Source: Micromonospora nigra (GTDB lineage Bacteria; Actinomycetota; Actinomycetes; Mycobacteriales; Micromonosporaceae). From it: 64,000 bases of DNA. Location: positions 2,403,501 through 2,467,500 of the forward strand of contig NZ_FMHT01000003.1 in NCBI RefSeq assembly GCF_900091585.1, read 5' to 3'. Of this stretch, positions 16,108-20,086 are shown piece after piece. Positions within the stretch are counted from its first letter, which is position 1; each line of letters begins with the position of its first letter. The notes under the pieces were generated by a model. That model searched no databases, was not told the origin of the DNA, and was given only the letters and a program-made list of their open reading frames with translations. The translations under genes and the position numbers were made by a program.

Positions 16108-16872
16108 TCAGCGGACCGGCGGGGCCCAACCGAACCGGGGCGGGCGACGCTCGGCGAACGCGGTGACGCCCTCCCGGGCCTCGCCGCTGGCCCGGACCTG
16201 CCCGTGCCACCAGGCGACCCGGTCGTCGTCGGCGCGGCCGTCGACGATCTCCTTCGCGGCGGCGACCGTGAGTTGGGAGCGTTCGCCGATCGCGGCGGTG
16301 ATCGCCGCGACCCGGTCCGCCAGGCCGTCGCCCGGCAGCACCTCGTCGACGAGGCCGACCCGCAGCGCCCGCTCGGCGTCGACCAGTTCGCTCGTGAACA
16401 GCAGGAACTTCGCGGTGGACGGCCCGACCAGCCGAGCCAGCCGCCGGGTGGTCGGCGCCGGGTAGACCAGCCCGAGCCGGGCCGGCGGGACACCGAAACG
16501 GGCGTCGTCGGCGGCGAGGCGCAGGTCGCAGGCCACGGCGAGCTGACAGCCGCCGCCCACGCAGGCCCCGCGGATCGCGGCCACCGTCGGCTTGGCGAAG
16601 GCCGCCAGCCGGTCCTCCGCCGCCACGGCGATGCTGGCGTCCCCGGCGTCGAGCAGCTCGTCCAGGTCGCCGAGGTCCGCGCCGGCGCAGAAGGTGCCGC
16701 CCGCTCCGGTGAGCACGACCGACCGCACCGCCGGGTCGCCCTCCAGGCCGTCGAGGAGCACCGGCAGCTGCCGCCACATGCCGGGGGTCATGGCGTTGCG
16801 GCGCGCCGGGTGGTGGATCGTCACCGTCGCGACCGTGCCGGTCACCTCGACGGTCAGCTCCGCGTCCGACAC
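16108..16872 (-). CDS. Enoyl-CoA hydratase/isomerase family protein
   Basis: 254 residues of the crotonase fold. VTIHHPARRNAMTPGMW opens the domain. The oxyanion-hole motif GAGGTFCAGADL and the second one around AAIRGACVGGGCQLAVACDLRLA are intact, followed by FGVPPARLGLVYPAP. These predict hydration or isomerisation of a CoA thioester. Whether the acid/base Glu residues of true hydratases are present cannot be settled by eye, so the reaction is open. Three tandem GTG codons offer starts. The last (16872) has GGAAGGAG about 8 nt upstream and is used here. Downstream of the M4 peptidase gene on the same strand but separated from it by a terminator. Confidence 0.8.
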   Translation of the reverse strand: MSDAELTVEVTGTVATVTIHHPARRNAMTPGMWRQLPVLLDGLEGDPAVRSVVLTGAGGTFCAGADLGDLDELLDAGDASIAVAAEDRLAAFAKPTVAAIRGACVGGGCQLAVACDLRLAADDARFGVPPARLGLVYPAPTTRRLARLVGPSTAKFLLFTSELVDAERALRVGLVDEVLPGDGLADRVAAITAAIGERSQLTVAAAKEIVDGRADDDRVAWWHGQVRASGEAREGVTAFAERRPPRFGWAPPVR

Positions 16873-16965
16873 CGCCACCACTCCTTCCGTCCCGTCGGGC
16901 AGCCTGCTCCGGTGAGCCACCGCCCCGTCCACCGGCGGGTGCCGGCCCGGCGACCATAACGGCGC

Positions 16966-17004
16966 GGGCCCGGCGACCACCCGGGTGGGGTGGCCGCCGG
17001 GCCC
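16966..17004 (-). terminator. Hairpin terminator after the M4 peptidase gene
   Basis: Ten-bp G/C arms at 16966-16975 and 16995-17004, with an inner stem that is also largely paired, lie 12 nt past the peptidase stop codon. There is no long U-tract, as is usual in high-GC actinobacteria. Confidence 0.6.
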
Positions 17005-17016
17005 GGCGGCGTCACG

Positions 17017-19404
17017 TCAGGAGACGGCCACCGCCGTGTCGTCGACCACGAAGGACGTCTGCAGGGAGGAGTCCTCGGTGCCGGCGAACTTCACGGTCAC
17101 GGTCTGCCCGGCGTACGTGGCCAGCGAGAAGGTGCGCTGGGCGTAGCCGGGGGCGGCGTCCAGGTTCGAGTACGTGGCCAGGGTCGCCAACACCGTCCCG
17201 GAGGAGCTGACCACCTGCACCTTGAGCGTGTCGTACGCGGTGCCGGTGCTGGTCTCGGCGGTGTCGACGTGCAACCAGAAGCGGAACGTGTAGGTGGTGC
17301 AGCCGGTGGGCAGGCTCACCGGCTGGGTGAGGGTGTCGACCCGGGAGGTGCCGTAGCCGTTCAGCCAGGCGCTCCAGCTTCCGCTGCGGGCGGGTTGGGC
17401 GGTGTGCTGCCCGACGACCCCGAAGGTCTGCGCCCAGCCGGTCGCGCCGGACTCGAAGCCCGGGTTGCCGAGCTTCTGCCCGGGGCTGGTGCAGGTCCCG
17501 CCGGAGCCGTTCACGGTCAGCGTGTACGTCGCCGAGCGGGTGGTTCCGCCCGCCGTGCCGTTGACGGTTACGTGGTAGACGCCGGGCGGGGTGGCCGGGC
17601 TGGTGCTCAGGGTCAACGTGGACGAGGCACCCGAGGTGACCGTGGCCGGGGTGAAGGAGGCGGTCGCCCCGGCGGGCAGGCCGGTCGCCGACAGCGTCAC
17701 GGTCTGCGGGGAGCCGTTGGTGGTGGCCGTGGACACCGTGGTCGTGGCGGCACCGCCCGGGTTCACGGCGCCGGCCGTGGGCGACAGGGTCACCGAGAAG
17801 TGGCTGCTGGTGCCGCAGGCGACGTCGGTGCCGGCGACGTTCACCGAGGTCCACGCCGCCTGCACGGCCCGGTACTCGGTGGAGCAGGCACCGTAGAGGT
17901 CGGTGGCGGCCCGCAGGGTGTACGCCCGCGCGGTGTTCGCCGGGTTGGCGGAGTCGACGTACGACGTGGTGGAGGTGAAGTAGACGTCCAGCGCCCGCCA
18001 CCAGATCCTCTCGGCCTTCACCCGCCCGATCTTGGTGACGCCCGGGGCGGAACCGCACGGCGTCGAGGTGCCGTAGGGGGTGCTGCCGGTGCCCTCGGCC
18101 AGGTTGAAGAAGAAGTGGTTGGCCACGCCGGACGAGTAGTGCACGTCGGCGAACCTGGTGCTCGGCGACCAGCAGTTGTCGCTGGCGCCGTCCAGCGCCG
18201 GGTTGTGCATGTAGCGCAGCGGCGTACCGTCGCCGTTGATGTTGATCTTCTCGCCGATCAGGTAGTCGCCCGGGTCGGCGGCGTTGGCCGCGTGGAACTC
18301 CACGGCGGTGCCGAAGATGTCGCTGGTGGCCTCGTTCAGGCCACCGCTCTCGCCGGAGTAGACGAGCCCGCCCGGCACCACGTTGTCGGTGACGCCGTGG
18401 GCCATCTCGTGCCCGGCGATGTCCAGCGACACCAGCGGGTTGGCGTTGTCCACGCCGTCGCCGTAGGTCATCCGGGAGCCGTCCCAGAAGGCGTTCGAGT
18501 AGTTCTGGCCGTAGTGCACCCGGCTGGGCACGCCCCGCCCGTCACCGAAGACACCGTGGCGGCCGTGGACGTCCCTGAAGTAGGCGAACGTGACGGCGGC
18601 ACCGTAGTGGGCGTCGACCGCGGCCCGCTGACGCGCGTCGGTGCCGCCCCACCTGTTGTCGGTGTCGGTGACGATGGTGCAGCCGGCCGTGCCGTTGTTC
18701 ATGTCGCAGGTGGAGCCGTTGCCGTGCGACGGGTCGATCAGCTGGTAGGTGGTCGCCGCCAGCGTCGTGTCGAGGGCGACGGTGCCGCCGTAGACGCCGG
18801 TGCCGGTGCCGGCGATCGCCTCGATCTCGTCGTACGCACCGATGAGCGTGCCCGTGGTGGCGTCGGAGATGACGTGGAACCGCGACGGGGTCTGACCGTC
18901 GGGCTGCCAGCCGGTGATCACGGTCTCCCAGGCCAGCCGGCCCGTGCCGGAGCTGGCGTCGACGATCAGTTCCGGAGTGCCCACCTTCGTGATCGTCCCG
19001 GCGAACTCGGCCCGGGCGGCCCGCTTCGCGACGGTCGCCCTGACCTTCGCCGTGGTGCCGAGGGTGAGCGGGGCGGTCAGGCCGACGGAGGAGCCGGCGA
19101 AGCCGCCGTCGGCTCCGGTGTGGATGACGAAGTCGCCGCCGAGCACCCGCAGCCCCCGGTACGTTCGCGTGTAGCGGGTGTGGCCCGCGCCGTTCGCGTC
19201 CACCCTGGTGCTGTGCACCTGGTAGCTCTCGGCGTCGGTCCCCTGCACGGCCCCGGGGTTGGTCCGCAGCACGGTCGCCGCGCGGGCGGCCGGGGAGTCC
19301 GGCGCGGGGGCGGCGAGGGGTGTGGCGGGTGCCGCGGAGGCGACGCCGGTCACCAGGCCACTGGCGAGCAGGGCGGCACCGACGGCGGCCAGGGGTCTTT
19401 TCAC
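17017..19404 (-). CDS. Secreted M4 (thermolysin-family) zinc metallopeptidase
   Basis: 795-residue preproprotein. Signal peptide (VKRPLAAVGAALLASGLVTG, Ala-rich cleavage region), FTP/PepSY-like propeptide, then the M4 catalytic domain with HEMAH at residues 332-336, the third zinc ligand in GGLNEATSD, and the active-site His region DVHYSSGVANHFFF. After the catalytic domain come an Ig-like domain (NPGGAATTTV..., PGVYHVTVNGTAGG) and a C-terminal jellyroll (NPGFESGATGW to SFVVDDTAV) likely to bind substrate or wall polymers. GTG at 19404 follows AGGAGGGCAT, which decides the start; the long upstream in-frame extension is not used. Divergent from the emfourin-like lipoprotein over 151 bp. Confidence 0.9.
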   Translation of the reverse strand: MKRPLAAVGAALLASGLVTGVASAAPATPLAAPAPDSPAARAATVLRTNPGAVQGTDAESYQVHSTRVDANGAGHTRYTRTYRGLRVLGGDFVIHTGADGGFAGSSVGLTAPLTLGTTAKVRATVAKRAARAEFAGTITKVGTPELIVDASSGTGRLAWETVITGWQPDGQTPSRFHVISDATTGTLIGAYDEIEAIAGTGTGVYGGTVALDTTLAATTYQLIDPSHGNGSTCDMNNGTAGCTIVTDTDNRWGGTDARQRAAVDAHYGAAVTFAYFRDVHGRHGVFGDGRGVPSRVHYGQNYSNAFWDGSRMTYGDGVDNANPLVSLDIAGHEMAHGVTDNVVPGGLVYSGESGGLNEATSDIFGTAVEFHAANAADPGDYLIGEKININGDGTPLRYMHNPALDGASDNCWSPSTRFADVHYSSGVANHFFFNLAEGTGSTPYGTSTPCGSAPGVTKIGRVKAERIWWRALDVYFTSTTSYVDSANPANTARAYTLRAATDLYGACSTEYRAVQAAWTSVNVAGTDVACGTSSHFSVTLSPTAGAVNPGGAATTTVSTATTNGSPQTVTLSATGLPAGATASFTPATVTSGASSTLTLSTSPATPPGVYHVTVNGTAGGTTRSATYTLTVNGSGGTCTSPGQKLGNPGFESGATGWAQTFGVVGQHTAQPARSGSWSAWLNGYGTSRVDTLTQPVSLPTGCTTYTFRFWLHVDTAETSTGTAYDTLKVQVVSSSGTVLATLATYSNLDAAPGYAQRTFSLATYAGQTVTVKFAGTEDSSLQTSFVVDDTAVAVS

Positions 19405-19555
19405 ATGCCCTCCTGAACGGGGGATGGCGTGCCCGGAACGGTCACGCCGACTGCGAGGATGGAACGAGACGGGGGCGGCGCGGCGACGGCCGGCCCCGCG
19501 CGGGTGCCGAGGGCGAGGTGGGAACGGGATGGTCGTGCCGGGCGTCCGAGCGGGC

Positions 19556-20086
19556 ATGAGATCAGCCTCGAAGACCGGTGTCAAGATCGCGCTTGCGGCG
19601 CTGCTCCTGACGGGATGCTCAGCGACGGAACCGACGGGGACGATACCGGAGGAGGATGCTTCCGTGGGGGCGACCGTCCCCGCGTCCACGACGGCTGCAT
19701 CCACGCCCACGCCGGAAGTACCCACGCCCACGCCCACGTCGGGCACCCCGCTGGTGGTGCTCTCCCGATCCGGCGGCATCGCGGGTCGGGGCGACACCGT
19801 GACGGTGCACCCGGACGGCCGGTGGATCGCCGTGGACCGCGCCGGGACGACCCGCACGGGCACCCTGGACGCCGCCGAGCTGGACCGGCTGCGCCGGCTG
19901 GTCGCCGATCCCGAGCTGGCGGCCGAGGCGACCCGGTCGCCGGGCCCGACGGCGTGCCGGGACGCGTTCGACTACCGGCTTACCGTCGGGAGGACGGAGT
20001 CACACTGGTCGGACTGCCCCGTCGACTCCTACCGGCCGAGGGTGACCGCCGAGGTGGTCGAGCTGCTGGTGAGGGCCACCGGCTGA
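19556..20086 (+). CDS. Emfourin-like lipoprotein, candidate M4 peptidase inhibitor
   Basis: 176 residues. Short signal peptide with lipobox LLTGC (Cys21), a Thr/Pro/Glu-rich linker with repeated 'PTP', then a domain with VLSRSGGIAG, a hydrophilic strand, GTLDAAELDRLRRLV and CRDAFDYRLTVG. This order (SRSGG, a strand, 'TGxLDxxELxxLRxLV', 'DAFDYxL') matches my knowledge of emfourin, the protealysin inhibitor family often encoded beside M4 peptidases. The neighbouring divergent M4 gene supports this. An in-frame ATG at 19529 with GAGG upstream is an alternative start but would lengthen the leader by nine residues. Two Cys (CRDAF, SDC) may form a disulfide. Inhibition is inferred, not shown. Confidence 0.65.
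   Translation: MRSASKTGVKIALAALLLTGCSATEPTGTIPEEDASVGATVPASTTAASTPTPEVPTPTPTSGTPLVVLSRSGGIAGRGDTVTVHPDGRWIAVDRAGTTRTGTLDAAELDRLRRLVADPELAAEATRSPGPTACRDAFDYRLTVGRTESHWSDCPVDSYRPRVTAEVVELLVRATG

Follow-up and report, generated by a model that had tools for sequence, protein, structure and literature searches.

The M4 protease and lipoprotein genes

The window analysed here, a 64,000-nt stretch of the 6.36-Mb genome of the soil bacterium Micromonospora nigra (Micromonospora group), contains two divergent genes, one for a secreted M4 (thermolysin-type) metallopeptidase and the other for a lipoprotein with an emfourin domain (Table 1). Emfourins are small inhibitors encoded with M4 proteases. The spacing of 151 bp given in the original prediction, which was made from the letters of the window, is that between the two start codons.

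Table 1. Features of the M4/lipoprotein locus, in window positions
Feature	Positions	Strand	Basis or remark
Flank gene resembling enoyl-CoA hydratase (name by eye)	16108..16980	-	Adjoins the lipoprotein gene directly where M4 is absent
Secreted M4 metallopeptidase, 795 aa	17017..19404	-	Pfam FTP, PF01447, PF02868; HEMAH 332, NEATSD 357
Promoter of extracytoplasmic function (ECF) sigma type, GGAAC-N17-CGTCCGA	19521..19549	+	CGTC ends 9 nt before the lipoprotein ATG
Lipoprotein with emfourin domain, 176 aa	19556..20086	+	PF20242 35.3 bits; AF2 model; hhalign
SRSGGIAG, the GGxxG motif common to canonical emfourins	19763..19786	+	Begins at residue 70; alignments
Cys134 to Cys154, pair flanking a predicted β hairpin	19955..20017	+	Invariant in the 42-row and 38-row alignments

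The lipoprotein is made up of a signal region ending in the lipobox LTGC (Cys21), a Thr/Pro-rich linker (residues ~22–62) and a domain (~63–176). A 275-codon open reading frame (19259-20086) was rejected as over-long, and the ATG at 19556 was taken instead because of the lipobox, the promoter just upstream and the equal arrangement in relatives. The lipobox anchor and three motifs of the original prediction are all in place, with GTLDAAELDRLRRLV beginning at residue 102 and CRDAFDYRLTVG at residue 134. In the AF2 model pLDDT is 86–98 per block of ten residues from residue 61 onward, and strands are predicted at 138–144 and 147–152, between Cys134 and Cys154; a disulfide between these two cysteines is possible.

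Relatives were drawn from a sample of 81 Micromonospora genomes, the window genome included. By phmmer 73 of these have lipoprotein-like matches, and the type found in the window (group A) is present in 51; the other 50 group A loci were fetched, giving n = 51 with the window. A lipobox with its Cys at position 20–24 is found in 48 of the 50 by scripts that sought starts having a lipobox (L129 has none, and L139, a fused frame, is uncounted). Residues G73, G74 and G77 are invariant both in a 42-row alignment (A1), made without nine of the 50 fetched loci (L103, L105, L111, L121, L126, L129, L136, L139, L141), and in a 38-row alignment (A3). The latter stems from a search of named genomes that used A1 as query and gave 41 loci, all in Micromonospora, and is without four of them (L160, with an unread base; L174 and L184, with no start; and L190, which is truncated). 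A scan of genome contigs with the single lipoprotein sequence confirmed no relative, plasmids searched by tblastn with the lipoprotein and with one canonical emfourin gave no match, and NCBIfam has no match above its cut-off for either the lipoprotein or M4. At L139 (genome G014) the lipoprotein gene, at its end, shares an open frame with an unrelated gene upstream of it, which may reflect recombination or misassembly.

The M4 reading frame is intact and starts at a GTG codon behind AGGAGG. Its product has a signal peptide (by eye), an FTP propeptide (48 bits), the thermolysin catalytic (Peptidase_M4, 159.3 bits) and α-helical (Peptidase_M4_C, 144.3 bits) domains and a C-terminal extension. 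The hallmarks of the family, HExxH, the downstream Glu, the FTP propeptide and both catalytic domains, are all present, so the catalytic domain is intact as had been predicted from HEMAH at 332–336. This is the sole PF02868 (Peptidase_M4_C) match in the window genome at E ≤ 0.001. In the intergenic alignment the region upstream of M4 (19405-19520) is, in the window, without most of a block around GGGGGTAGTCACGCATGTAGATATA that is common to relatives, and M4 regulation in this genome may for that reason differ from theirs.

Membership of the emfourin family

The Pfam Emfourin profile (PF20242) matches lipoprotein residues 93–171 with 35.3 bits (E 1.6e-8; cut-off 27), and this is the only PF20242 match in the genome at E ≤ 0.001. 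All 42 rows of A1 match the same profile at E ≤ 0.1. For comparison, the 31 best-scoring canonical emfourin loci were collected; 30 of them hold an M4 gene, and 24 of the 31 proteins were aligned (A4). In all 24 the two G and the A of GGxA are the same, the G that closes the motif is almost invariant, and there is no conserved Cys. An hhalign comparison of the lipoprotein profile with the 24 gives a probability of 98.3 (E 2.3e-14). The solved emfourin 6zyg is found by the canonical profile (E 1.1e-4), so the link of the lipoprotein to it is indirect; PDB searches with the lipoprotein alone and with A1 did not match 6zyg and returned linker or signal-region matches, and a single emfourin (from genome G057) did not find it as query. 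The original prediction looked to an emfourin hit or fold, of which the hit was obtained; a fold search with the lipoprotein model named Mago nashi as the nearest solved fold and did not single out emfourin. Membership of the emfourin family is thus supported by sequence profile.

Pairing with M4 and species without it

PF20242 is matched at E ≤ 1e-3 in 35 of the 81 Micromonospora genomes (in 25 above the curated cut-off), and PF02868 is matched in 47. In 37 of the 51 group A genomes an M4 gene of 67–74% identity lies divergently next to the lipoprotein gene; in Micromonospora the two genes form a conserved divergent pair. This recurrence, and the fact that each member is the only match to its family in the window genome, indicate that the two genes are more than chance neighbours.

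M4 is cleanly absent from ten of the 51, in which the lipoprotein gene lies directly beside the flank gene; nine of these ten genomes have no PF02868 match anywhere, and the tenth (G024) has one elsewhere. In one further genome (G021, locus L129) M4 is reduced to a remnant and the lipoprotein lacks its N-terminus; the remnant shows that M4 deletion does occur. The remaining three loci, L111 (at a contig end), L138 and L139, are unreadable for M4 state. In nine of the named loci, too, the flank and lipoprotein genes adjoin and M4 is absent (M. parastrephiae, M. parva, M. foliorum, M. tarensis, M. alfalfae, M. chokoriensis, M. veneta and strains U21 and H61); all but M. veneta and U21 are already in the 81-genome set, so seven of the nine are not further cases.

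On a flank-gene tree of 64 rows, of which 50 have M4 and 14, L129 among them, do not, M4 state changes seven times, and three of these changes are forced by starred branches. The tree, a quick and unrooted one with many weak branches, omits 11 of 96 loci, treats identical flank proteins as one and does not separate gain of M4 from loss. Recognition by PF20242 at E ≤ 1e-3, counted by hand, extends to 31 of the 37 M4-bearing genomes vs two of the ten clean M4-less ones (G040 and G030). Emfourin character thus tracks the presence of M4, and this favours a functional link. In one Micromonospora genome (L142, G057:C5) a short canonical emfourin (80 bits) lies ~250 bp from another M4 gene on the same strand.

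Selection and co-variation

In M4-less species the domain has a median ratio of nonsynonymous to synonymous substitution (dN/dS) of 0.44 (13 sequences, 78 pairs; the set includes L157, L260 and L111, whose genome has no PF02868 match), and two M4-bearing groups give 0.32 (five sequences, 10 pairs) and 0.63 (ten sequences, 45 pairs); linker values are ~0.8 in all three groups. Loci L129, L136, L139 and L141 were left out of this analysis. Eleven of the 13 M4-less sequences have SGGFAG as their motif; L101 has TGGFTG and L107 has SGGFTG. The dN/dS values and this motif pattern indicate that the gene is not decaying in M4-less species, and there is no clear change in the evolutionary pace of the domain there. 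Among 48 M4-bearing loci (L136 and L141 left out) lipoprotein and M4 distances correlate beyond what the flank gene accounts for (partial r 0.24, a value reached by 11 of 2000 permutations), which is weak support for co-evolution of the two proteins.

The promoter of the lipoprotein gene

In the intergenic alignment GGAACC...CGTCCGA stands just ahead of the lipoprotein ATG, and the elements of an ECF-type promoter, a –35 GGAAC and a –10 CGTC ~17 nt apart, are both present. GGAAC-N17-CGTC precedes 47 of 48 Micromonospora lipoprotein genes, ending 8 nt (39 genes) or 9 nt (8 genes) before the ATG; the remaining gene, L111, is truncated at the contig end, yet its CGTCCGA is preserved. Across the 1.16 million positions that these loci comprise, a looser pattern occurs 80 times, a count that takes in the genuine sites. 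The promoter is retained in ten of 11 M4-less loci, the 11th being L111. Since the –10 element lies so close to the ATG, transcripts probably have no leader. The layout resembles GGAAC-N17-18-cGTT, described in PMC10012870 as the consensus common to Corynebacterium glutamicum SigH and SigE, the latter a sigma factor of cell-surface stress, and the –10 element resembles the CGTC of ECF promoters (PMC3397946).

The looser pattern has 36 matches in the window genome vs three for a reversed control. Genes were examined at 31 of the 36 sites; 11 of these have the exact layout (N17, 8–9 nt, ATG), and six of the 11 head lipoprotein-like genes (by eye), namely the window gene, L309 (=L323), L310, L317 (=L325), L321 (=L324) and L322. 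In L317/L325 the codon bias is lost past the start codon, and this frame is perhaps misread. An ECF regulon of surface lipoproteins is possible at the L309, L310, L317, L321 and L322 sites. The genome has 49 PF08281 matches; a cognate sigma factor was not found. The gene at L294 was considered as a self-regulated sigma factor and set aside; its N-terminus resembles a LuxR-type response regulator (by eye).

Other genera and other emfourin types

Matches to the A1 profile, B-like (see below) and weak ones included, occur in 118 of 200 genomes of the family, in 32 of its 44 genera, and PF02868 is present in 125 of the 200. Among 36 loci fetched from other genera, the script found a lipobox start in 31 (not in L226, L241, L245, L255 or L256), and the promoter layout (N17-18, 8–9 nt) is seen in ten (L222, L223, L229, L230, L242, L243, L246, L248, L252, L254). 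By tblastn an M4 gene lies in ten of the 36 (L222, L224, L227, L231, L232, L235, L240, L241, L248, L250), close and divergent in six of these (L231, L232, L235, L240, L241, L250); no M4 was found within the fetched stretch in the other 26. At four loci in other genera (L225, L226, L245, L257) lipoprotein emfourin relatives occur as two adjacent copies.

Weaker relatives of the lipoprotein (group B, 29–40% identity) are present in 71 of the 81 Micromonospora genomes, including some in which no M4 was found. The copy of the window genome lies ~60 kb from the pair and outside the window (G000:C3:2363232-2363663; L148, L326). The GGxxG motif is missing from all four group B copies read (L148–L151). 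Yet another emfourin type, in L004, L005, L007 and L146 (5969-6403), is exported, ~145 aa long and has a signal and no lipobox by eye; that of L146 scores 32.4 bits with PF20242, and DUF6438 matches in the same profile search were below cut-off. Window-type M4 was not found in the five stretches L143–L147.

A proposed tethered inhibitor of M4 proteases

We propose, at about even confidence and from sequence evidence, that the lipoprotein is a tethered emfourin which restrains M4 proteases near the membrane, those of its own cell and perhaps foreign ones. The lipoprotein would be exported and then lipidated on Cys21, and the flexible Thr/Pro tether would hold the inhibitor domain in the wall zone. 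There the domain would bind thermolysin-type proteases close to the membrane and so may protect surface proteins, and a protease that diffuses away from the cell would stay active. Where M4 is present, as in the window, the divergently encoded protease would be the first client; where it is absent, the inhibitor would be retained, perhaps against M4 proteases of neighbours. The gene has its own ECF-sigma-type, probably leaderless promoter, which would place it under sigma-factor control, and because of this promoter the lipoprotein is likely raised under envelope stress. A location outside the membrane would be in keeping with the tether of ~40 residues, with the paired cysteines and with the ECF-type promoter. 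The M4-less copies seem to have drifted from the Emfourin profile, and this makes it less likely that their function is unchanged in those species. The M4-less species are partly close kin on the flank-gene tree, so that ten M4-less genomes are not ten independent cases.

Persistence without an own M4 suggests that either foreign M4 proteases are also targets, as for an immunity protein or shield, or the protein has changed its job. In the stronger form of the former, the lipoprotein would be an extracellular immunity protein, an envelope-stress-induced shield of Micromonosporaceae against the thermolysin-type proteases of competitors and of the cell itself; we hold this tentatively and think it rather doubtful. 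A narrower explanation makes the lipoprotein a dedicated regulator of its own secreted M4 at the membrane and the M4-less copies leftovers on their way out. The conserved divergent pairing, the weak co-variation of the two proteins, the M4 genes at 30 of 31 canonical emfourin loci and the poorer fit of the M4-less copies to the Emfourin profile all agree with it. Restraint of the cell's own protease, however, does not explain why the gene is kept in ten of 51 genomes without M4 or why it has its own ECF-type promoter. The lipoproteins of M4-less species are also intact, with a dN/dS of 0.44 and the promoter retained; among M4-less loci only L129 has a broken lipoprotein, and M4 state changes seven times on the flank-gene tree (three of them forced), with one sizeable M4-less group. 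On balance we think this explanation unlikely.

In a further explanation, an emfourin-related lipoprotein would have taken up another role in the envelope, acting on another protease or a wall protein, with M4 a neighbour for historical reasons. Retention of the lipoprotein without M4, the drift of M4-less copies from the family profile, the six lipoprotein-like genes among 11 exact-layout promoter sites, the group B paralogue in 71 of 81 genomes and Mago nashi as nearest solved fold can all be read in this way. But group A copies keep the canonical GGxxG motif that the four group B copies read do not have, and divergent M4 neighbours are found in other genera too, and we judge such a role improbable as well. 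That the two genes are chance neighbours and the domain call a weak false positive is very hard to maintain against the PF20242 match, its recurrence across the A1 rows, the hhalign result, the link to 6zyg and the recurrent pairing.

Relation to known inhibitors

By profile the lipoprotein belongs to the same Pfam family as the Serratia proteamaculans emfourin (M4in, PDB 6zyg) and the short actinobacterial PF20242 emfourins. Like canonical emfourins it has (S/T)GGxAG after the first strand, then a helix and a DxFxY strand, and its gene lies beside M4. Unlike the canonical emfourins (31 loci), which are 83–142 aa long by the starts chosen and have no signal by eye, it has a signal peptide, a lipobox, a Thr/Pro tether, an extra hairpin and an invariant Cys pair. 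Exported actinobacterial inhibitors of exported proteases are familiar from the Streptomyces SSI family (e.g. SSTI, 6i0i), which the lipoprotein would resemble in this respect, and MliC/PliC and bacterial alpha-2-macroglobulin are membrane-tethered inhibitors that guard the envelope against other targets and offer a parallel in how it may work. PMC9505478 places protealysin inside the cell and the emfourin gene in the protealysin operon; the lipoprotein gene differs in being divergent, with an ECF-type promoter of its own. A lipoprotein emfourin was not found in the literature searched, though the primary emfourin papers fell outside that search. New here are the ECF-type promoter, the persistence without M4 and the profile matches in 32 of 44 genera of the family.

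If the lipoprotein is indeed a shield, strains with M4 would correspond to the producers of a toxin-immunity system, and strains that have the inhibitor but no M4 to its resistant non-producers. A lipidated, tethered branch with a leaderless ECF-type promoter, present in many genera of a single actinobacterial family and kept where the protease is missing, would shift emfourins from an inner safeguard to the defence of the cell surface, and the natural producer and non-producer species make this idea testable.
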